DNA of 11,560 nucleotides, taken from assembly GCA_030453285.1 (NCBI GenBank), contig JAKDKP010000018.1, positions 1-11,560 of the forward strand, written 5' to 3'. The position numbers were made by a program, and so were the translations under genes. The stretch is from Propionibacteriales bacterium. GTDB taxonomy: Bacteria > Actinomycetota > Actinomycetes > Propionibacteriales > Propionibacteriaceae. The notes below the pieces were generated by a model. It had not been told where the DNA came from. It was given only the letters and a program-made list of their open reading frames with translations, and searched no databases. Shown in pieces: positions 1,460 through 10,990 of the stretch (its first letter is position 1; every line of letters begins with the position of its first letter).

Positions 1460-2409
1460 TGACGACCCTGCGCGCTGCCACCGGTACGACCCTGCGGATG
1501 CTGCTGGGCAGCACCACGGCCGCCGTCGACGACCTGACGGCAGTGGACGATCGCATCGGTACGGCCCTGCCCCTGAGTCGAAGGGTCGGCTTCGTTTCCC
1601 TCGCCGGAGGGTCGGGTCTGAGTTCGGTCCTTGTCTCGGCACTGCTCATGCTCGACGCACGCCGATCCGGCCCGATCCTGGCCGTCGACGCAGCCGGCGG
1701 ATCCTGCGGACTCGGCCGACTGCTGGGGATTGGACGGGCCGAAGGTGATTCCCAGTCGGGCCCCGCTGAACAGGCGAAGGCCGATGCCCAGACTCGCCGT
1801 ACGGCACGGACCTCGGCCGACGCGCTGCGAGGATTGCCACGGTTGGGACGAAACGCGCGCCTTGTTGATCTTGCTGACCCTCTCCTCACCGGCGTCGTAC
1901 CGAGCCGCCTTTCGGCACCTGTGGCACGGTGGACCGAGGAGGTCGCCCCCATCGCCCGGTTCTCCGACCTGGTGCTGACCGACTGGGGAGTCCGGCCACC
2001 GTTCGAGGATCTGGGTCACGTCGCGAGCACCGGGCACGTGTTGATCGTCGTCGGACGAGCCGACCGGAAGCAGGCCATCGATGCCGTACGTGCCGTGGCG
2101 TCGATAGGTGCCGACAGCGCATCTCCGCGCATGGTTCTGGTGCTGGTGGATGGTGGCCGCACCGCAAGCCGGTTCGCCCTGGACGTCGGGAATCTGCCGG
2201 TCGACCGACTGCACCGAATCCCGTACGACCCGGCCTTCGGTGGAGCCATCCAGCACTCGCAGCGGCGGCTGTCGCACCCAACGCGCAGAGCATTGCTCGA
2301 CCTGTGCGCCGCTCTTGTCGATGAGGCCGGCCGCAGCGGCGCCCCCGGGCACGCTGCTGCCGGTCGCGTCGCTGCCGACACGAGCCGACCCGAGGAGAAC
2401 TGGTCATGA
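1459..2409 (+). CDS. ESX-linked ParA/MinD-like protein with degenerate P-loop
   Basis: The 316-residue product has the layout of a ParA/MinD (SIMIBI) ATPase. A central beta strand and loop VGFVSLAGGSGLSSVLVSAL (43-62) sit where the deviant Walker A belongs. A strand ending in an Asp follows (ILAVDAAGG, 73-81), then LVLTDWG (171-177), HVLIVVGRADR (193-203) and a late IPYDPAFGGA (254-263), which recalls the C-terminal part of ParA-like proteins of actinobacterial secretion loci. The canonical KGGVGKTT reads AGGSGLSS here, so both the signature lysine and the P-loop lysine are missing. ATP hydrolysis is therefore doubtful, and a scaffolding or regulatory role with the neighbouring EccC motor is more likely (inference). 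There is no signal peptide or membrane segment. It overlaps both neighbours by ATGA junctions. Confidence 0.72.
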   Translation: MTTLRAATGTTLRMLLGSTTAAVDDLTAVDDRIGTALPLSRRVGFVSLAGGSGLSSVLVSALLMLDARRSGPILAVDAAGGSCGLGRLLGIGRAEGDSQSGPAEQAKADAQTRRTARTSADALRGLPRLGRNARLVDLADPLLTGVVPSRLSAPVARWTEEVAPIARFSDLVLTDWGVRPPFEDLGHVASTGHVLIVVGRADRKQAIDAVRAVASIGADSASPRMVLVLVDGGRTASRFALDVGNLPVDRLHRIPYDPAFGGAIQHSQRRLSHPTRRALLDLCAALVDEAGRSGAPGHAAAGRVAADTSRPEENWS

Positions 2410-5400
2410 CGCGTCGACTCGTCCACCGACCGACCCGGATCACCGAGCCGCTCACCGAGCCGGAGCCGGAGCGGCTGGCCGCCCCACCGACCCTCACCGA
2501 TGATCATGTCGGCGGGCAGGCCCTGCACATGATGCTGCCCGCAGCCGGTGGCCTGTCGGCCGTGGTGATGATCGTGGTGATGCGAGGGGCCAACCCGCTG
2601 TTCATGCTCGCTGGCGGGGTGATGCTCGTGGTCGCTCTGGTTGCCGGCGTGGCGTTCGCCTTCAGCCACCGTGGCCAAGCTGTTCGAACCCGTCGCGTGC
2701 AACGCGAATTCTATCTGGACTACCTGGAGAAGTTCCGGATGAAGATGCGCACTCGCACCCGCGAGGTACGCGAACGGACCGCGACCCTGGACCCCGACCC
2801 CGGTGCCCTGCCGGAGGTGATCCGCGATCCCGGACGGCTGTGGGAACGACGACGTACGGATCCAGATTTCGGCCGGGTCCGGGTCGGCCTGGGCGACGTG
2901 GCCTGGTTCGGGCTCACCGTCCCGCCCGAGGAGAGCCCGGTCCAGCCGTACGATCCGATCATGCTGGCCGAGGCCGAAGCGCTGACCCAGCACTACGGGC
3001 AGGTGCTGGGTGTGCCGGTGGCGGCACGGCTCAAGGGTGCCGGCTCGGTGGCGGTGATCGGCGCGCGCGAGGACGTGCTTCCGGTTGCCCGCTCGATGAT
3101 CATGCAGCTCGCGGCGTTGCACGCTCCCGACGATCTGATGCTGGCCGCGACGTACGGGCCCGACACCGCCGATGACTGGAGAGGGCTCGACCTGCTGCCC
3201 CACGTTGTCGATGACAAGCTGCGCGATGCCGGTGTCCGCGCCCGTCGAGTCGGTCCGACCATGACCGATCTGGGCAGCGTGCTGGGTGCCGAGTTGACCG
3301 ATCGTGCACAACTGGCGGCCGCAGCCCGACGTGACGTGATCAAGGAGACCTTGCCGGTCTGTCCGTTGATGATCTTCTGCGACGATCATGGTCGGCAGGC
3401 CAACCCGCTCCCGATTCCCGACGCCGATCTGCGCCCCGATGAGCTTGGCGTGACCGTCGTCCACCTGTTGAGTGATCGGATGCACGAGCCCCCCGACGTC
3501 ACCGTACGGGTGACGGTTGCCGACGGCCTGGCCACCATCACCGACAAACGCCTGATCGGGGAGGAGCAGCGGCCCACGCCGACCCGGACCGCCTCGATCG
3601 ATCAACCGTCGGCGGACCTGTTCGACACCGTGGCGCGTACGTTGGCCCCGTTGCGACTGCAGTTGACCCAGGCCGAACGTGCCGATTCTGCTCGCAGCAT
3701 CCCGATCACTGATCTGCTCGGGATCGAGGAACTCGGTCATGTCGGAGCAGGGTTGTGGCGTCCCCGTTCCCCCCGCGACTTCCTGCGCGTACCGATCGGG
3801 CTGGACGACTACGGGGCCCCGATCCTGCTCGATCTCAAGGAGTCGGCCGCGCTGGGAATGGGGCCGCACGGCATCTGCATCGGCGCGACCGGGTCGGGAA
3901 AGAGCGAGATGCTTCGCACGCTGGTGCTGGCACTGGCCCTCTCGCACTCGCCCGAGGACCTCAGCATGATCCTGGTCGACTACAAGGGTGGTGCGACGTT
4001 CGATCCGTTCACAGGCTTGCCGCACGTCGCCGGCATCATGGACAATCTGGCCGACGAGGCACAGTTGATCGAACGGGCCCGGGCCAGCATCTCCGGCGAG
4101 GTGATCCGACGCCAGGAACAACTCCGGGCAGCCGGTTCGGTGTCGATCAGCCACTACCGCGAACTCCGAGCCGAACGCGGGAGGACCGGCGGCCAGCCGC
4201 TGCCGCCGATGCCGCACCTGTTCGTGGTGATCGACGAGTTCGGCGAGCTGCTGACCGCCGAACCCGACTTCATCGACCTGCTGATCCAGATCGGGCGCAT
4301 CGGCCGGTCGATCGGCGTCCACCTGCTGCTGTCCAGTCAGCGCATCGAGTCCGGAAAGCTGCGGGGCCTGGACACCTACCTGTCGTATCGCATCGGCCTG
4401 CGGACGTTCTCGGCCGCCGAGAGCAGCGTCGTGCTGGACACCCCCGACGCGTTTCACCTGCCGGCGATCCCCGGGTACGGGTATCTCAAGGTCGACACCT
4501 CGGTCTATCGCCGCTTCCGCTCCGGATTCGTGTCCGGTCCGGTGGACGAACCCGACAGCGCCGAGATCGATGAGAACCATGGGCCTGCCGAGCCGCTGCT
4601 GCTACCCACCTACAACACCCTGCGGCAGTCCACCGGCGGGGAGGGCGACGATGACGAGACCGAAACCGAGCTCACCGCCCCGATGGTCGGGCGGCCGTTG
4701 GTCGTCGAGTGCGTCGAACGATTGCGGACCGGAGCAGCCGACCGGACCGTCCCGCCCATCTGGCTGCCGCCGCTGCCGGACCGGTTGACCTTGTCCCGGG
4801 TGATCGGTGACCCCGACGAGTCGAGCTCGAACGGGCTGGTGGTGCCGCTGGGGCTGCTGGACGATCCCGCCCGCCAGCGTCAGCAACCCTGGCTGCTTGA
4901 TCTTGGCCGAGCCGGCGGACACCACGCCATCATCGGAGCTCCCGGTACGGGCAGAACCACGTTCCTGCGGACGGTGGTCACGTCCTTGGCGCTCAGCCGG
5001 ACGCCGCGCGAGGTCAGCATCTACGGCATGGACCTCACTGGCGCCGGACTGCGGCGGATCGAGGGGTTTCCGCACGTGGGCGGCATTGCCACGCGTGCCC
5101 ACCCCGACCGGCTCCATCGACTGGTCGAGGAACTGAACGGGATGCTCGCCATCAGGGAAGCGGTGTTCCGGGATCGCGGGATCGAGTCACCGGCGATGTT
5201 GCGCGCTGAACATGCCGCCGGGCGGATCCCCGAACTGGTGGCGGCCGAGGTCGTGCTGCTGGTGGACGGCCTCTCGGTGTTGCGCGACGACTTCGAGGAG
5301 TTGGAGGAGTCTTTGATGGACCTGTTGCAGCGCGGCGGCAGCTACGGGATCCATCTGGTGCTGGCGATGACCCGCTGGAATGAACTGCGCATCGTGCACC

Positions 5401-6434
5401 AGCCCATGATCGGCACGCGATTCGAGCTGCGTCTCAACGACCCGCTCGACTCCACGATCGGGCGCAAGCTGAACGCCGTGCTGAAGCTTGATCAACCCGG
5501 GCGAGTGATCACCGATGACGAGCGCTTTGCCCAGATCGCCCTGCCGGTCCTGGCCGACACCGGAGAGGCTGGTCTTGGTGCGGCCGTGGAGTATCTCGCC
5601 GAACAGTCGGCCGCGAGCTGGAAGGGAGCCGTGGCTGCCGAGCCCATCCGCCTGCTGCCCACTCACCTGGATCCCAACGACCTGCCCGACGCCTTGACCG
5701 AGCCTGATGCCGTGCCGTACGGACTCCGCCAAGACACCATGGAGCCCGCGTTGCTCGATCTGCGCACCACCGACCAGCACCTGATGGTGATCGGTGACCA
5801 GGGATCGGGCAAGACGACCCTGCTGCGCACCGTCATCCGTGGACTGGTGGAACGACACACCGCCGAGGAGTTGGTGATCGCGGTGATGGACCTGCGCGGA
5901 CAAGTGGCTGCCGAGGTGCCCGATGACTATCTCGGTGGGCACGCGACCACCGCCGGGTTGGCTCACGGCCTGTCGTCGGCGATCGCCACCGAGTTGTCCG
6001 AACGCGTCGACTCGGCCAACGCCGCCAGTGGGGACGGCCGACCCACACCGGAGTCGCGCCAAGCATTGGCTCGCGGACCTCGCATCGTGGTGGTCGCCGA
6101 CGACTACGACATTCTCGACGCCAGCACCATCGACCCACTTGAGCCTCTGCTGCCGTTCCTGGCGTCCGCACGGGATCTGCGCCTGCACGTGGTCATCAGT
6201 CGGCCGGTGGCCGGCATCGATCGAGCGATGTTCGGGCACGGCCTGTCGACCCTGCGAGATACCGGAGGCAGCGTGTTCCTGATGTCGGGCGAACGGTCCG
6301 AGGGACAGGTGGTCCCGGGCGTCTACGCCGAGCCCATGGTGCCGGGACGCGGCCGATTGCTCCGACGTGGCGGCAAGCCACACGTCGTCCAGGTTGCCGA
6401 GACCGGAGCCGACCTTGGCAAGGAGAAGGGGTAG
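2406..6434 (+). CDS. eccC: EccC, FtsK/SpoIIIE-type ATPase of type VII secretion
   Basis: EccC is the membrane-anchored motor that recognises Esx substrates and powers ESX secretion. The 1342-residue protein is a single-chain form, not split into EccCa and EccCb. Two membrane segments lie near 42-59 and 63-86, followed by a basic/acidic stalk. ATPase 1 has Walker A GATGSGKS (493-500) and Walker B VVIDEF (607-612). ATPase 2 has GAPGTGRTT (844-852), where Arg850 replaces the lysine, and LLVDG (951-955) without the catalytic Glu. ATPase 3 has GDQGSGKTT (1130-1138) and VVVADDYD (1228-1235). An intact first module with more degenerate later modules is usual in this family, whose later modules bind substrate and regulate. 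The ATG at 2406 follows GAGGAG at 2392-2397 with eight bases between, and overlaps the preceding stop (ATGA). Confidence 0.96.
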   Translation: MTRRLVHRPTRITEPLTEPEPERLAAPPTLTDDHVGGQALHMMLPAAGGLSAVVMIVVMRGANPLFMLAGGVMLVVALVAGVAFAFSHRGQAVRTRRVQREFYLDYLEKFRMKMRTRTREVRERTATLDPDPGALPEVIRDPGRLWERRRTDPDFGRVRVGLGDVAWFGLTVPPEESPVQPYDPIMLAEAEALTQHYGQVLGVPVAARLKGAGSVAVIGAREDVLPVARSMIMQLAALHAPDDLMLAATYGPDTADDWRGLDLLPHVVDDKLRDAGVRARRVGPTMTDLGSVLGAELTDRAQLAAAARRDVIKETLPVCPLMIFCDDHGRQANPLPIPDADLRPDELGVTVVHLLSDRMHEPPDVTVRVTVADGLATITDKRLIGEEQRPTPTRTASIDQPSADLFDTVARTLAPLRLQLTQAERADSARSIPITDLLGIEELGHVGAGLWRPRSPRDFLRVPIGLDDYGAPILLDLKESAALGMGPHGICIGATGSGKSEMLRTLVLALALSHSPEDLSMILVDYKGGATFDPFTGLPHVAGIMDNLADEAQLIERARASISGEVIRRQEQLRAAGSVSISHYRELRAERGRTGGQPLPPMPHLFVVIDEFGELLTAEPDFIDLLIQIGRIGRSIGVHLLLSSQRIESGKLRGLDTYLSYRIGLRTFSAAESSVVLDTPDAFHLPAIPGYGYLKVDTSVYRRFRSGFVSGPVDEPDSAEIDENHGPAEPLLLPTYNTLRQSTGGEGDDDETETELTAPMVGRPLVVECVERLRTGAADRTVPPIWLPPLPDRLTLSRVIGDPDESSSNGLVVPLGLLDDPARQRQQPWLLDLGRAGGHHAIIGAPGTGRTTFLRTVVTSLALSRTPREVSIYGMDLTGAGLRRIEGFPHVGGIATRAHPDRLHRLVEELNGMLAIREAVFRDRGIESPAMLRAEHAAGRIPELVAAEVVLLVDGLSVLRDDFEELEESLMDLLQRGGSYGIHLVLAMTRWNELRIVHQPMIGTRFELRLNDPLDSTIGRKLNAVLKLDQPGRVITDDERFAQIALPVLADTGEAGLGAAVEYLAEQSAASWKGAVAAEPIRLLPTHLDPNDLPDALTEPDAVPYGLRQDTMEPALLDLRTTDQHLMVIGDQGSGKTTLLRTVIRGLVERHTAEELVIAVMDLRGQVAAEVPDDYLGGHATTAGLAHGLSSAIATELSERVDSANAASGDGRPTPESRQALARGPRIVVVADDYDILDASTIDPLEPLLPFLASARDLRLHVVISRPVAGIDRAMFGHGLSTLRDTGGSVFLMSGERSEGQVVPGVYAEPMVPGRGRLLRRGGKPHVVQVAETGADLGKEKG

Positions 6435-6464: not shown

Positions 6465-6803
6465 ATGCCACGTGAATTCGCGCTCATCTCAACCAAGCCG
6501 ATTGGCGTCGAAGCGGTCGCCGCGGTGGCAGGGGCGGCCAACCCGAGGCTGGGGCTGCGAACCCTGTTCGGCGGCTGGGCGGTCCAACTGCTGGACGCCG
6601 GCGACACTGGAGTACTGACGATCGAGGTGTCCCGTTGGCTGGAGACACCGCCTGCTCAGCATGCCGGCGACTGCGGCGACGGGGGTGTCTGGTGGACCGA
6701 AGCGTCGGCACCCTGGGGATCTGCCGGTGCCCAAGGAGCCCAGCTCGTACGGGCCCTGGCCAGCAATGCAGGGGCCGAGTTGATCACCGAGGATGACCAG
6801 TGA
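6465..6803 (+). CDS. 112-aa protein of unknown function in the ESX operon
   Basis: I do not recognise this protein. It lies 30 bases after eccC, has a strong binding site (GGAGGA 6455-6460, four bases before ATG 6465), and its TGA overlaps the start of the next gene, so it is a genuine operon member. The 112-residue product has no signal peptide and no clear membrane helix. A hydrophobic N-terminal half (FALISTKPIGVEAVAAVAG) is followed by LFGGWAVQLLD and a strand VLTIEVSRWL. A distinctive GGVWWTEASAPWG (73-85) comes next, then a helix QLVRALASNAGAELI and an acidic end. It lacks the WXG motif arrangement of a roughly 100-residue helical hairpin, so it is not an Esx substrate. By position it may be a cytosolic accessory factor for EccC or for the ParA-like neighbours. 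Confidence 0.75.
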   Translation: MPREFALISTKPIGVEAVAAVAGAANPRLGLRTLFGGWAVQLLDAGDTGVLTIEVSRWLETPPAQHAGDCGDGGVWWTEASAPWGSAGAQGAQLVRALASNAGAELITEDDQ

Positions 6804-7495
6804 TGCCCCGCTCGGGTGACGAGCCGACCGCACCCGCGCGTCTGCATCGCTTCCTGGTGGCGGGTACGGCCGGCGGTGTCGGGACCACGACCGTGGCGGC
6901 CCTGCTCTTCGCCCACCTGGCCAAGTCCGGGCACCCGCCGATCCCGATCGACCGCACCGCGGGTTCGCTGGCCGAGCGGCTGCCGCCGACGGCCGGTGAC
7001 CTTGATCAACGACTCCGCGTGCACGACCTCGGTGGCCACGCGGCAACGGCGCTCACGCAACTCAGCAATCAGACCAGCCACGCCGTCCTGGTCAGCGCGG
7101 CCACCCCCCTGGGGTGTGACCTGGCCCTGGCCGAGTTGCGGAGGTCAGCGGGCCGTGAGGTCGACGAAGTGGCTGATCGCGGCAGCGGTACGGGGGACCA
7201 GCGGGTCGTGATCGTGCTCGCCGACGTGTTCGGCACACGGCGACTCGGTCGACAGATGATCACCGCGCTGCAAGCGGCCCCGGGGGTGCGCGGGGTGGTC
7301 CGTCTCCGGCGGGACCACGCCCTCGCCGCTGCGGATCGGATCAACGCCAAGAACCTGTCGCGGAGAACCACGGCGGCCATCGGTGAGCTGGCCACCCTGC
7401 TGGACGCCACCTCGCAGGGATGGTCGATGCCATCGCGGCCGAAGCGGCAATCGAGCCCGCCCATGGACTGGTCGCACGAGATCAAAACCCGTTGA
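6803..7495 (+). CDS. Second ESX-linked ParA/MinD-like protein lacking P-loop lysines
   Basis: The 230-residue product starts with a strand and glycine loop FLVAGTAGGVGTTTVAALLF (17-36), the hallmark of ParA/MinD family N-termini, followed by a strand ending in Asp (PIPIDRTAG, 47-54), a short HDLGG (74-78), AVLVSAATPL (94-103), VVIVLADVFG (135-144) and a basic C-terminal part. The normal KGGVGKTT reads AGGVGTTT, so both lysines are again absent while the rest of the loop is well kept. That pattern recalls TadZ/CpaE-type relatives and suggests altered nucleotide handling. Either ATG 6803 (TGATG overlap) or GTG one codon earlier (GTGA overlap) could be the start; GAGGA at 6789-6793 serves both. 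It is the last gene of the secretion operon, and its stop overlaps a promoter-like -35 element. Confidence 0.72.
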   Translation: MPRSGDEPTAPARLHRFLVAGTAGGVGTTTVAALLFAHLAKSGHPPIPIDRTAGSLAERLPPTAGDLDQRLRVHDLGGHAATALTQLSNQTSHAVLVSAATPLGCDLALAELRRSAGREVDEVADRGSGTGDQRVVIVLADVFGTRRLGRQMITALQAAPGVRGVVRLRRDHALAAADRINAKNLSRRTTAAIGELATLLDATSQGWSMPSRPKRQSSPPMDWSHEIKTR

Positions 7496-7519
7496 GGGCA
7501 TCGACGGCCTCGCCTACGA
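7492..7519 (+). promoter_or_regulatory. Candidate promoter of the leader peptide/erm unit
   Basis: TTGAGG at 7492-7497 and TACGAT at 7514-7519 are separated by 16 bases and resemble the -35 and -10 of a housekeeping sigma factor promoter. A start point about seven bases after the -10 falls at 7525-7528, next to the ATG at 7528, so the transcript would be leaderless or nearly so, which is common in actinomycetes. The only A-rich patch nearby, ATCAAAA at 7481-7487, sits just upstream of the -35. WhiB7-dependent resistance promoters have an AT-rich patch in a similar place, but WhiB7 control here is only a suggestion. The -35 overlaps the stop codon of the preceding gene. Confidence 0.5.
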
Positions 7520-7527
7520 TGACCGCC

Positions 7528-7605
7528 ATGTGTTCTGTCGCCGTGTGTGCTGCCGGCATCGCTGTGATCCGGGTCCGCCGCGCCCCGCGGCGACGGATCG
7601 TCTGA
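7528..7605 (+). CDS. Candidate 25-aa erm leader peptide
   Basis: ATG 7528 opens a 25-codon frame ending at TGA 7603-7605, 88 bases before the erm start. The peptide begins MCSVAVCAAG, continues IAVIRVRR (residues 11-18) and ends APRRRIV. Known macrolide-arrest leaders of erm genes carry motifs such as IAVV, IFVI or an Arg/Lys-X-Arg/Lys (+X+) triplet; here an IAVI stretch directly precedes R-V-R. The codons of this motif (7558-7581) lie on and just before the left arm of a strong hairpin. Promoter placement suggests translation starts at the 5' end of the mRNA. An in-frame ATG at 7519 would add MTA but lies within or before the predicted start point. No clear binding site precedes it, consistent with a leaderless start. 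The function is inferred. Confidence 0.5.
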   Translation: MCSVAVCAAGIAVIRVRRAPRRRIV

Positions 7606-7690
7606 CCGACCTCCCGCTTCGCCGCCCCGCCTTCCAGCGCCGGCGCGGCCCTGTGCTGCCCGGCTTCGGCCACCCTTGCGGCAGGAGCAC
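7566..7690 (+). promoter_or_regulatory. erm: Candidate translational attenuator upstream of erm
   Basis: Several exclusive pairings are visible. Hairpin 1 has an outer stem of 7566-7571 with 7594-7599 and an inner perfect 7-bp stem of 7576-7582 with 7586-7592; it covers the second half of the leader peptide. Its right arm can instead pair 7587-7593 with 7619-7625 (7 bp), and its left arm region 7577-7584 can pair with 7642-7649 (8 bp). Downstream, 7653-7660 can pair with 7680-7684 and 7688-7690, trapping part of the erm binding site AGGAG (7683-7687), while 7635-7640 can compete for 7653-7658. There is no U-run, so control would be translational. GC richness makes chance pairing easy, so the exact fold is uncertain. 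Confidence 0.45.
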
Positions 7691-7693
7691 CCC

Positions 7694-8548
7694 ATGCGTC
7701 AACCCATTGATCGACGACACGATCGAGGACAGAACTTCCTCATCGATCGCCACACCATCTCCACCGTCTGCACCTCCGTTGCCGCCACCAACGGACCGAT
7801 CCTCGAGATCGGACCCGGCGGCGGCGCCCTCACCCTCGCCCTGGAACGCCTCGGACGTCGGTTGGACTGTCTCGAGGTCGACCCCGAACGGGCGGCTGAC
7901 CTGACCCGACGCGTTTCCCCCACCACCACCGTCCGGGTTGGCGACGTTCTTGATCATCGGTTCTCGGCCCGTCCCCACGTGGTGGTGGGCAACCTGCCGT
8001 TCGGACTGACCACCCCCATCCTGCGGCGCCTGCTGTCCGCGCCGGGATGGACCGACGCCGTGCTGATCGTCCAGTGGGAGGTGGCCCGCAAGCGGGCCGC
8101 GGTTGGCGGGGCGACCATGCTGACCGCCCAGTGGTGGCCGTGGTTCGACTTCACCCTCGTCGAACGCGTACCGGCCGCCGCCTTCCGGCCCCGACCCGCC
8201 GTCGACGGCGGGGTGCTCACCATCGGCCGACGACGATCACCCCTTCTGGCGTGGGCTGATCGACGGAACCCCCACCGTCTGGTGCAGCAGGTGTTCACCG
8301 GCCGCGGGAGAGGCGTCGGCGAGATCCTCGGCAAGACGATCCGGCAACCGCCGCCGGTGATCACGGACTGGTTGCGACGGGCGGAGGTGGCACCGGGCGC
8401 CCTACCGCGCGACCTGTCGGCACAACAGTGGGCGAGGCTGTCCCGTTCGGCTGCCGGCCGGGATCAGCGGTCGCGTCGCGGCAGGAGTCGCCCACGGGCG
8501 GATGCGCCCGCCACCAGCCACACATCGCCGTCCCGCAGACCCAAGTAG
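7694..8548 (+). CDS. erm: Erm-type 23S rRNA adenine-N6 methyltransferase
   Basis: Erm enzymes use S-adenosylmethionine to methylate A2058 (E. coli numbering) of 23S rRNA and so block binding of macrolides, lincosamides and streptogramin B. The 284-residue protein has the family motifs: RGQNFL near the N-terminus (11-16), the SAM-binding EIGPGGGALT (38-47), LEVD with acidic residues for the ribose (60-63), GDVL (83-86), and the catalytic motif IV NLPF (100-103). The block VQWEVARKRAAVGG (126-139), MLTAQW and AFRPRPAVDGG (163-173) is typical of actinobacterial Erm(X)/Erm(E)-like enzymes and separates it from the housekeeping KsgA dimethyltransferase. The basic tail after about 254 is also seen in actinobacterial Erm proteins. 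ATG 7694 is preceded by AGGAG at 7683-7687 with six bases between. The 3' end overlaps the convergent gene by 85 bases. Confidence 0.93.
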   Translation: MRQPIDRRHDRGQNFLIDRHTISTVCTSVAATNGPILEIGPGGGALTLALERLGRRLDCLEVDPERAADLTRRVSPTTTVRVGDVLDHRFSARPHVVVGNLPFGLTTPILRRLLSAPGWTDAVLIVQWEVARKRAAVGGATMLTAQWWPWFDFTLVERVPAAAFRPRPAVDGGVLTIGRRRSPLLAWADRRNPHRLVQQVFTGRGRGVGEILGKTIRQPPPVITDWLRRAEVAPGALPRDLSAQQWARLSRSAAGRDQRSRRGRSRPRADAPATSHTSPSRRPK

Positions 8549-9126
8549 GGCTCGCCGGCGGCATCATGCCGGGCCGCAACACGTGTGAGTACCTCGGTCT
8601 CGAAGTGATCCTCGGAGTCCAGGTGCGGGACCACGGCACGGTCCAGCACGCCGAGTCCGTCGAAACGAGGCTCGACGGCGTACGTTCGGCGCAGCTCGTC
8701 TGTGTCGTCGCAGGCGTCGAGCTCTCGCAGATGTGGGCCCAGCACACACGGGCCGGCGCTGTAGCCGCCGTAGGCGAACGCATCGGTCGCCAGGCCGTCG
8801 ATGATCAACTGGTCGGCACCCGAGATCGCCAGCACGTGCCGGAGGACGAACACATTCCCGCCCCGTACCCACAGCAGGGCCGCCGTCGCCAGCCGATCAG
8901 CCAGCCCGGAGCGGTCGTCGAGATGATCACGCAGATCCAGTTCGGCGACCTGGTACCCGAGACCGGCCATCCGGTCGAGCTCATCTGCCACCCGCTCGGC
9001 GCGCGCCGTGGGCGGGACAGCGTCAATCGCGTTGGCGATCACCAGTACCGGTCCCGGCGGCGGGGCCAGTGTGCGCAAGGCGTCGGGATGGTCGCCGAGG
9101 CGGAAGGAGGACAGGTACAGCCGCAT
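8464..9126 (-). CDS. Peptidase E-like (family S51) protein
   Basis: The 220-residue cytoplasmic protein resembles alpha-aspartyl dipeptidase E and related class-I glutamine-amidotransferase-like hydrolases, in which a serine on a nucleophile elbow does the chemistry. Visible marks are the start MRLYLSSFRLG, the strand PVLVIANA (26-33), LLWVRGGNVFVL (84-95), the elbow YGGYSAGPCVLG (119-130) with probable nucleophile Ser123, and VVPHLDSEDHF (165-175) with the probable catalytic His168. Its length fits the family (about 220-240). I chose ATG at 9126 because the first strand begins there and GGAAGA lies eight bases upstream; an in-frame ATG at 9147 would add seven residues. It is divergent from the ABC-F gene and convergent with erm. 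Its substrate and any link to resistance are unknown. Confidence 0.85.
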   Translation of the reverse strand: MRLYLSSFRLGDHPDALRTLAPPPGPVLVIANAIDAVPPTARAERVADELDRMAGLGYQVAELDLRDHLDDRSGLADRLATAALLWVRGGNVFVLRHVLAISGADQLIIDGLATDAFAYGGYSAGPCVLGPHLRELDACDDTDELRRTYAVEPRFDGLGVLDRAVVPHLDSEDHFETEVLTRVAARHDAAGEPYLGLRDGDVWLVAGASARGRLLPRRDR

Positions 9127-9153
9127 GGTGGGAGTCTTCCATTGCAAGGGGCG

Positions 9154-9242: not shown

Positions 9243-9391
9243 TCCTTGCTGACCGCGCGCTGGTGCGGGAGGCGTGGGCGAGAAGTGATTTGGTCCAGCC
9301 GGAGCGGGCGAGGACACTGGAGGGGTTTGTTCTTCTGCCCCGCCGCACTCTCGGACGAGGGCCTGCGTACGTCCGGAATGGGGACTCGATC

Positions 9392-10990
9392 ATGCTGGTG
9401 GCCAAGGATCTCGAGGTCCGGGTTGGTGCACGCCTGCTGTTGGAGCAGGTGAGCTTCCAGATCGCCGCCGGTGACAAGATCGGCCTCGTCGGACGCAACG
9501 GCGCCGGCAAGACCACCCTCACCAAGATCCTCGCCGGTGGCGGGCTTCCGGCCGCCGGTTCGGTGAACTCGAACGGTGATGTCGGCTACCTGCCACAGGA
9601 TCCGCGTACCGGCGATCTGGAGGTGCTGGCCCGGGACCGCATCCTGTCCGCCCGTGGCCTGGATGCCACCTTGCGGCGACTACGGCGGGCCGAGGAAGAG
9701 ATGGGTTCGGCCGATGAGTCCGTACGAGAGCGTGCGATGTCGTCGTACACGCGGGCCGAGGCCGAGCTTGCCGCCGGCGGCGGGTATGCCGCCGAGGCCG
9801 AGGCGGCCCGCATCGCCAGCAATCTGGGACTGCCCGAACGTGTGCTCGGGCAACCGTTGCGGACCCTGTCGGGCGGGCAACGGCGACGAGTGGAGCTGTC
9901 CCGCATCCTGTTCTCCGGGGCGGAAACGCTGCTGTTGGACGAGCCGACCAACCACCTCGATGCGGACTCGATCAACTGGCTGCGTGGCTTCCTTCAGGGA
10001 CACAACGGCGGTCTGATCATGATCAGTCACGACACCGGACTGCTGGAGGCGACGGTCAACAAGGTGTTCCATCTCGACGCGAACCGTGCCGCGATGGACG
10101 TCTATGCCATGAACTGGAAGCGCTACCTGCTGCAGCGGGAGACCGACGAGAAGCGTCGCCGCCGGGAGCGGCTGAATGCCGAGCGGAAGGCTGATCAACT
10201 CTTCACCCAGGCAGCCAAGATGGGTGCCAAGGCGACCAAGGCCGTTGCGGCGCAGAACATGGCACGTCGGGCCGAGAAGCTGATGGCCGGCATCGAGGGC
10301 GAGCGTGTCCAGGACAAGGTGGCCAAGATCAGGTTCCCGGAGCCGGCACCCTGCGGAAAGACACCCTTGACGGCCAACAACCTGTCCAAGATGTACGGGT
10401 CGCTCGAGGTGTTCACCGGAGTCGATCTGGCCATTGATCGCGGTAGTCAGGTGGTGGTGCTGGGGTTGAATGGTGCAGGCAAGACCACTCTGCTGCGCAT
10501 CCTTGCTGGCGTCGAGAGGCCCGACAACGGCGAGGTCGTGCCGGGGCACGGGCTCAAGATCGGCTATTACGCGCAGGAGCATGACACCCTCGAGGTGGAC
10601 CGCAGTGTGCTGGACAACATGAAGTCGGCCTCACCGAATCTCAACGACACCGAGGTGCGCAAGGTGCTCGGCTCCTTCCTGTTCACCGGTGACGACGTGG
10701 CCAAACCGGCCAAGGTGCTCTCCGGCGGCGAGAAGACCCGTCTGGCCCTGGCCATGCTGGTCGTCTCCAGCGCGAACGTCCTGCTGCTCGATGAGCCCAC
10801 CAACAACCTCGATCCGGCCTCTCGACAAGAGGTGTTGGCCGCCATTCGCACGTACGCAGGGGCGGTGGTTTTGGTCACTCACGATGAGGGTGCGGTCGAA
10901 GCGCTGAACCCCGATCGGGTGCTCGTACTGCCCGACGGCGTCGAGGATCTCTGGTCTCCCGACTACGGGGAACTGATCTCCTTGGCATGA
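9392..10990 (+). CDS. ABC-F ATPase, Rv1473-like
   Basis: ABC-F proteins are soluble twin ATPases that bind the ribosomal E site; some are translation factors (EttA) and some displace antibiotics. The 532-residue product has two nucleotide-binding domains and no membrane segment. Domain 1 has Walker A GRNGAGKTT (34-42), signature LSGGQ (159-163) and DEPTNHLD (183-190). Domain 2 has GLNGAGKTT (358-366), LSGGE (443-447) and DEPTNNLD (467-474). The charged linker between them (QRETDEKRRRRERLNAERKA) contains GAKATKAVAAQNMARRAEKL. Wording throughout closely follows M. tuberculosis Rv1473 as I recall it, a protein annotated as a macrolide-related ABC ATPase. ATG 9392 was chosen because the first strand (LVAKDLEVRVGARLL) starts there and GGGGA lies seven bases upstream; the open frame before it is not family-like. 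Confidence 0.93.
   Translation: MLVAKDLEVRVGARLLLEQVSFQIAAGDKIGLVGRNGAGKTTLTKILAGGGLPAAGSVNSNGDVGYLPQDPRTGDLEVLARDRILSARGLDATLRRLRRAEEEMGSADESVRERAMSSYTRAEAELAAGGGYAAEAEAARIASNLGLPERVLGQPLRTLSGGQRRRVELSRILFSGAETLLLDEPTNHLDADSINWLRGFLQGHNGGLIMISHDTGLLEATVNKVFHLDANRAAMDVYAMNWKRYLLQRETDEKRRRRERLNAERKADQLFTQAAKMGAKATKAVAAQNMARRAEKLMAGIEGERVQDKVAKIRFPEPAPCGKTPLTANNLSKMYGSLEVFTGVDLAIDRGSQVVVLGLNGAGKTTLLRILAGVERPDNGEVVPGHGLKIGYYAQEHDTLEVDRSVLDNMKSASPNLNDTEVRKVLGSFLFTGDDVAKPAKVLSGGEKTRLALAMLVVSSANVLLLDEPTNNLDPASRQEVLAAIRTYAGAVVLVTHDEGAVEALNPDRVLVLPDGVEDLWSPDYGELISLA

Follow-up and report, generated by a model that had tools for sequence, protein, structure and literature searches.

The stretch analysed here (the window) is an 11,560-nucleotide (nt) contig from a Propionibacteriales bacterium, C414 in a 769-contig assembly with a completeness of 82.6%. 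It carries an erm gene, whose product matches NF000499.2 (Erm23S_rRNA_broad) at 244.2 bits (cut-off 212) and has Erm(46), Erm(38) and Erm(55) as its best named relatives, with scores under their own cut-offs. The upstream open reading frame (ORF) 6800-7495 ends 198 nt before the erm ATG at 7694, and in this gap a short ORF lies on the strand of erm and directly upstream of it. A first-pass annotation had proposed a macrolide-sensing leader peptide and attenuator here, and the 198-nt gap, the 25-codon ORF, its IAVI-R-V-R stretch and the AGGAG of the erm Shine-Dalgarno (SD) region are all as it described them. The best reading of the locus is, with a probability of about 70%, a translational attenuator with a +X+ arrest leader under a WhiB7-type promoter. 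The features are collected in Table 1.

Table 1. Features of the erm leader region in the window
Feature	Coordinates	Strand	Basis or remark
A-tract AAAA, predicted WhiB7-type promoter element	7484..7487	+	3 nt before -35
-35-like GTTGAG	7491..7496	+	overlaps stop codon of upstream ORF 6800-7495
-10 box TACGAT (TAnnnT)	7515..7520	+	7 nt before leader ATG 7528
Leader ORF, 25 codons, MCSVAVCAAGIAVIRVRRAPRRRIV	7528..7605	+	stop TGA 7603-7605
Predicted +X+ arrest codons Arg-Val-Arg	7570..7578	+	R-x-R conservation, ErmDL analogy
Segment A, left arm of hairpin 1	7576..7582	+	within/just 3' of arrest codons
Segment B; right arm in hairpin 1 (7586-7592), pairs alternatively with C (7587-7593)	7586..7593	+	swap test
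Segment C, anti-SD; pairs with B (7619-7625) or F (7616-7625)	7616..7625	+	fold, swap test
Segment D, left arm of internal hairpin	7639..7649	+	fold
Segment E, right arm of internal hairpin; in relatives pairs with F too	7655..7664	+	fold, swap test
Segment F, erm ribosome-binding region, AGGAG 7683-7687	7678..7690	+	fold, swap test
erm, 23S rRNA adenine-N6 methyltransferase, 284 amino acids (aa)	7694..8548	+	NF000499.2, PF00398

The leader was compared with the regions upstream of other erm genes. The Erm homologues come from three sources: 57 near genomes, 198 genomes of the family, and a species collection whose 56 loci were reduced to the 31 most similar ones. The first set comprises 65 loci (the window, L002-L010, L031-L061 and L087-L110), with Erms that are, the window itself aside, 32-62% identical to that of the window. 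Outside it stand L001 (the window's own locus), the lower-scoring, KsgA-like L011-L030, L062-L086 (25 of the species collection's 56, of lower identity) and homologue matches without a locus; inside it, L006/L050, L047-L049 and L109/L110 are duplicates. A second set of 27 new erm loci came from 394 genomes of the class, with near pairs in L117/L120, L118/L121 and L136/L137. The strict pattern asks for a short ORF whose peptide closes with [small/hydrophobic]-R-x-R-[RSTGQ] and 0-2 further residues, and with eight residues after R-V-R the window leader itself falls outside it. Such an ORF lies upstream of erm in 46 of the 65 first-set loci, as against 6/65 on the reverse strand and 0-5/65 in 20 shuffles. 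It is important to point out that the pattern was composed after the first listings had been seen, and only the test on the 27 loci, for which it was fixed beforehand, escapes that fault: there it is found in 23/27, compared to 0/27 on the reverse strand and 0-3/27 in shuffles. The recurrences come from records of Enemella (Propionibacteriaceae), Streptomyces, Amycolatopsis and Mycolicibacterium, with Erms about 42-62% identical to that of the window. By this comparison, the reading as an arrest leader of the macrolide type, with a +X+ site, is strongly supported.

A leader could be anchored at 53/65 first-set and 24/27 later loci, those failing the strict pattern being hand-picked. Among the 61 distinct leaders, the middle residue of R-x-R is L in 25, I in 13, P in 8, D in 7, T in 5, and E, M and V in one each, and the codon of the first Arg is CGG (20), CGC (14), AGG (14) or CGT (13). 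The residue preceding the motif is I, L, V, M or T in 55/61; Ala stands at -3 in 28/61, and small or hydrophobic residues otherwise stand before R-x-R. The stop follows exactly two residues past R-x-R in 57/61. Arg at both places, the preceding residue and the nearby stop are partly built into these counts by the picking pattern; it did not impose the variety of Arg codons, nor the preference for two residues where one to three were permitted. The middle residue is acidic (R-D-R, R-E-R) in L003, L008, L054, L059, L106, L108-L110, L128, L130, L136 and L137, in contrast to the RLR/RIR majority, and the drug preference of these leaders may differ. Besides the window's, two leaders, L057 and L060, have long tails.

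IAVV and IFVI are arrest sites of the ErmA/ErmC type, and to the annotation two arrest types seemed joined in this leader. A hybrid sensor of this kind, in which IAVI adds a second stall site to +X+, would fit the position of IAVI (7558-7569) immediately before R-V-R and the similar stretches SIAVM, AIAMI and SVAVI in three other leaders. However, a stretch of the form [ILV]A[VIM][IVLM] stands ahead of R-x-R in only 4/61 distinct leaders, and the residues before the motif are otherwise variable, which makes the hybrid very improbable. Within IAVIRVR, whose conservation the annotation had proposed to check, R-x-R is kept but IAVI is not. The residue and stop counts in the 61 leaders indicate that the conserved element is R-x-R with its nearby stop, and that IAVI is the window's local version of a loose hydrophobic stretch. 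Neither the string IAVV nor IFVI occurs in the available text of PMC8298421.

We now turn to the promoter. After removal of L135 (repeated hairpins), a TAnnnT ends 6-7 nt ahead of an in-frame ATG or GTG in 69 of 76 anchored leaders, as against 2-7/76 at six other spacings. At 5-8 nt it is present in 72/76, the misses being L003, L054, L059 and L134. In 32 of 72 leaders, the window included (AAAA-CCC-GTTGAG), an A-tract stands 1-4 nt before a -35-like core at the right distance, and at six shifted positions the combination occurs in 0/72 each. The promoter-like pair of the annotation is recovered as a conserved -35/-10 layout through comparison with relatives alone; a sigma70 consensus scan of 7440-7720 returned 0 promoters. 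Since the -10 ends 6-7 nt before the start codon, the transcript probably starts at the start codon, and the leader ORF would thus be leaderless. An in-frame ATG at 7519 would extend it by MTA. In the same genome, L139 1426-1782 codes for a WhiB protein that contains an AT-hook-like stretch, RGRPRK, and solely by this stretch we take it to be WhiB7; further WhiB matches of the genome lie on C745 and C379. The WhiB7 motif is AT-rich and located 3 bp upstream of the -35 according to the available text of PMC10727445, and the window follows this rule. The likely leaderless start, the WhiB7-type element and the stop after R-x-R, present in the relatives but not in the window, had gone unnoticed in the annotation.

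Next, we consider the RNA between the leader and erm. The fold contains the hairpin over the arrest codons (7576-7582 with 7586-7592) and the alternative pairing 7587-7593:7619-7625, both as the annotation had them; its further pairing 7635-7640:7653-7658 is complementary, but the fold favours 7639-7649:7655-7664. An RNAalifold consensus from an early alignment of 35 sequences was nearly structureless (-1.6). The helices slip register between clades, as judged by eye, and a partner-swap test was therefore chosen instead of a covariance model. In this test, native duplex energies are compared with those of partners swapped between species, the segments being cut from alignments; alignment A1 holds 31 of 36 listed sequences, L124, L129, L130, L133 and L134 having been excluded by hand as hard to align. 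With 23 sequences of <78% identity, the swap counts are 0/5000 for both B:C and E:F, 38/5000 for C:F, 125/5000 for A:B, 594/5000 for D:E and 3132/5000 for C:D, and nine pairs outside the model give 364-4955/5000. The eight later loci alone, which include the related pair L117 and L118, give 7 for E:F, 33 for B:C, 59 for C:F, 499 for A:B and 581 for the control B:D (all /5000). In a strict set of 14 sequences, B:C remains at 0/5000 and C:F at 25/5000. We also considered a pairing of the 5' part of the leader with the SD, but rejected it: its count of 1/5000 in a redundant set of 25 rose to 356/5000 in 32 non-redundant loci. Relatedness can therefore inflate the test, and the stricter sets are the ones that carry B:C and C:F. 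By their low counts there, these two are the firm native pairs, with C an anti-SD that B could capture, and E:F is a less firm one. The anti-SD stem over the erm binding site, as the annotation drew it, is backed by the C:F result. In the window itself, C:F (7616-7625 with 7678-7688) amounts to -17.6 kcal/mol and beats C with 17/18 other F segments, B:C is ordinary (better than 7/18), and D:E is strong (-19.5) although its swap support is weak.

The mechanism that we propose is as follows. The WhiB7-type promoter would start the mRNA at or next to the leader ATG, and the 5'-terminal leader ORF would be translated. Once the exit tunnel contains a macrolide or ketolide, the ribosome would arrest at Arg15-Val16-Arg17, with the Val codon in the P site. 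A ribosome covers about 15 nt from the P site to its leading edge, and the edge of the arrested ribosome would lie near 7585-7588, just 3' of A and at the foot of B, so that A:B could not form. B would instead pair with C (7587-7593:7619-7625), C would release F, and Erm would be made. With the drug absent, ribosomes would pass, A:B would re-form and C would close the SD by pairing with F. WhiB7 would raise transcription in parallel, and both transcription and translation would thus answer ribosome-targeting drugs. In the relatives, the edge of the arrested ribosome would reach the end of the stop codon, where B begins. In the window, CCG takes the place of this stop, and the reading frame runs through B as far as 7605; B stays at the same distance despite the missing stop, but unarrested ribosomes would read through B.

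The leader hairpins could also act as a terminator whose formation the stalled ribosome prevents, as in ermK, an example of transcription attenuation, or in the upstream ORF (uORF) of whiB7. D:E is indeed a strong, GC-rich hairpin. It is not followed by a T-run, however, and 7440-7720 contains 0 terminator-like sites; by segment order, moreover, D:E would form in the drug state, which is the wrong sense, and in the swap tests the SD region of the same sequence is the preferred partner of C and, with less certainty, of E. Transcription attenuation is accordingly a rather improbable account of the locus.

For the translational attenuator, the cost of opening the SD was calculated with the ribosome at different positions; with 73% GC in the window RNA, the equilibrium folding model is at its limit there. 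When the 5' RNA is omitted, the window SD opens at 2.6-4.1 kcal/mol with the edge at 7582-7587 and at 4.7-5.4 kcal/mol with the edge at 7588, and a ribosome past B (edge 7594-7610) gives 6.5-7.3 kcal/mol. The whole window transcript from 7518 gives 7.3-8.4 kcal/mol. For the window from 7518, again with the 5' RNA omitted, the free state lies 4.84 kcal/mol above the stalled one (7/300 shuffles as large) and the past state 3.67 above it (2/300), and both together are reached in 0/300. Over 29 loci, the cost drops on average by 1.82 kcal/mol at the stall and rises by 2.06 kcal/mol past it, compared to shuffle-set maxima of 0.95 and 0.88; for 23 later loci, without L131 (no recognisable SD), the means are 1.34 and 1.69 kcal/mol against maxima of 1.06 and 0.67. 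We have also considered a fuller model, with the whole transcript from the leader start and the ribosome footprint alone masked, in which 33 loci give means of 2.35 and 2.42 kcal/mol against shuffle maxima of 1.11 and 0.81. The sets of 29 and 33 loci were hand-picked for diversity.

Several results speak against the attenuator. In the fuller model, the window costs 7.7 kcal/mol free, 8.5 stalled and 7.3 with the ribosome at the stop, that is, differences of -0.8 and -1.1 kcal/mol and no release, because the leader RNA 7530-7558 takes the SD. The liberation of AGGAG by stalling that the annotation foresaw thus appears when the 5' RNA is omitted and vanishes when it is kept, and masking 7558-7590, as it had suggested, leaves the SD closed at 9.2 kcal/mol. 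An initiating ribosome added to the model does not bring the switch back: the costs are 3.8 kcal/mol for this ribosome alone, 5.2 with the stall and 4.9 with the ribosome at the stop, and 183/200 and 134/200 shuffles do equally well. Transcripts begun at 7540 cost 2.1-3.8 kcal/mol and those begun at 7561 3.3-5.5 kcal/mol. The resting closure of the window SD depends on a 5' contact at chance level, matched by 319/500 shuffles. The leader ORF has no SD before it, and the stop codon that its relatives have after R-x-R is missing from it. Among the relatives, 12/65 first-set and 3/27 later loci could not be anchored to an R-x-R leader (L002, L004, L007, L009, L010, L105 and L107, for example, show none). 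The first family test (cut +18, longer tail, without L056 and L057) gave a mean of only 0.74, with 18/51 above 1 and 9 below -1. The strict set of 14 weakens A:B (2579/5000), D:E (1285/5000) and E:F (237/5000), and the control B:D reaches 96/5000 there. C:D was rejected as a resting-state helix, being strong everywhere without native preference (3132/5000). Finally, the family evidence is no proof of function in this genome.

The folding energies of seven stretches, compared with dinucleotide shuffles, have z between -0.94 and +0.26. The structure is hence no more stable than shuffled sequence, an outcome that the annotation had named as one that would count against it, although stability against shuffles is a weak criterion for an RNA that is expected to switch. 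This energy and the behaviour of the window in the full-length model, where it has no switch, would fit control by WhiB7 only, with a drug-induced promoter, the leader ORF as a by-product and the SD closure as mere GC-rich RNA. The A-tract and -35 at WhiB7 spacing and the WhiB protein with an AT-hook in the genome are also in line with this, as is erm(37), which lies in the WhiB7 regulon and which the available text of PMC4128351 presents as the exception among uORF-run erm genes. Such an account would leave unexplained, however, that the R-x-R leader recurs under a pattern fixed beforehand (23/27), that B:C and C:F prefer their native partners, and that an R-x-R ORF occurs without an A-tract match in 40 of 72 leaders (anchoring required R-x-R). 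We regard WhiB7-only control as unlikely, and the translational attenuator under a WhiB7-type promoter as the better description.

This attenuator can be compared with known systems. The ErmCL-ermC attenuator changes from 1:2 and 3:4 to 2:3 among its four segments, and its arrest peptide differs from that of the window. Unlike ErmCL-ermC, the window has an extra hairpin, D:E, inside the C...F loop. Otherwise the proposed logic is the same as in this translational attenuator (available text of PMC13410324), with A:B and C:F giving way to B:C. In ErmDL, the arrest site is Arg6-Leu7-Arg8, where Leu7 occupies the P site and Arg8 the A site; with telithromycin the arrest depends strictly on +X+, with erythromycin to a lesser degree (PMC8298421, in the part available). 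Going by that text, the window resembles ErmDL-ermD in having a short ORF before erm with Arg-X-Arg, for which the P site is predicted to hold X and the A site Arg; it differs in that the first Arg is residue 15 and not 6, the intergenic region is 88 nt and not 276 nt, the start is probably leaderless and the promoter appears actinobacterial.

For pikR1/pikR2 of the pikromycin producer Streptomyces venezuelae, the accessible part of PMC6685928 names them as inducible, and the window's erm would be, like them, an inducible actinobacterial erm. Loci L037, L042 and L043 carry MQFCHSQARYMRLRR[SA] leaders. We take these loci to be putatively of the pikR1/pikR2 type; their leaders are little like that of the window outside R-x-R. 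L047-L049 come from records of Propionibacterium, Flaviflexus and Corynebacterium, and by these hosts we take them to be putative erm(X); in their leader, RLR is followed by a long tail. Putative erm(X) L047 has TATGAT 7 nt before an ATG of the leader, which is similar to the -10 spacing of the window; the long tail after RLR sets all three apart and leaves them uncounted by the fixed pattern. For the erm(X) leader of corynebacteria, translational attenuation has been proposed (PMC3350403, as far as its available text goes). The mycobacterial erm(37) and erm(41) are, like the window's erm would be, WhiB7-run, and the available portions of PMC4128351 and PMC10727445 mention no +X+ leader for them. 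That portion of PMC4128351 distinguishes erm(37), as a WhiB7-controlled gene, from those under uORF control; the window's erm has signs of both.

As for the surroundings of erm, two genes of type VII secretion lie upstream, a YukD/EccD-like gene at 59-1459 and an FtsK/SpoIIIE protein of 1342 aa at 2406-6434, which is presumably EccC-like. Downstream on the same strand, 9263-10990 encodes an ABC-F ATPase that matches NF000355.4 (ribosomal-protection-like ABC-F) at 380.3 bits (cut-off 380), a possible second ribosome-drug resistance gene near erm. A Peptidase family S51 ORF at 8464-9147 on the reverse strand is convergent with erm and overlaps its 3' end by 85 nt. The window has 0 matches to Rfam families above the gathering score.

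Translational attenuators of erm that use a +X+ leader are already a known kind. No description of a +X+ leader that is leaderless and stands under a WhiB7-type promoter was found in the literature searched, which covered few subscription papers. The apparently undescribed layout, common to the actinobacterial loci, consists of a probable leaderless +X+ ORF, a stop at the edge of the ribosome, a co-varying anti-SD switch and a WhiB7-type promoter (32/72). The available text of PMC11264731 finds erm uORFs in some families with no universal pattern, and postulates an independent origin of uORFs and palindromes. Among the actinobacterial erm genes about 42-62% identical to that of the window, a single arrest motif and a single promoter-to-start spacing return repeatedly, together with matching RNA partners. 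We suggest, tentatively and at somewhat less than even odds, that Actinomycetota share an old two-tier erm sensor, composed of a WhiB7 or related promoter and a leaderless +X+ peptide with its stop at B and a co-evolving switch, of which the window would be a variant that lost the stop and reads through B. If the leader is leaderless, the sensing ribosome would be loaded in the manner of leaderless mRNAs, and from the +X+ motif one would expect not only macrolides but also ketolides to induce.

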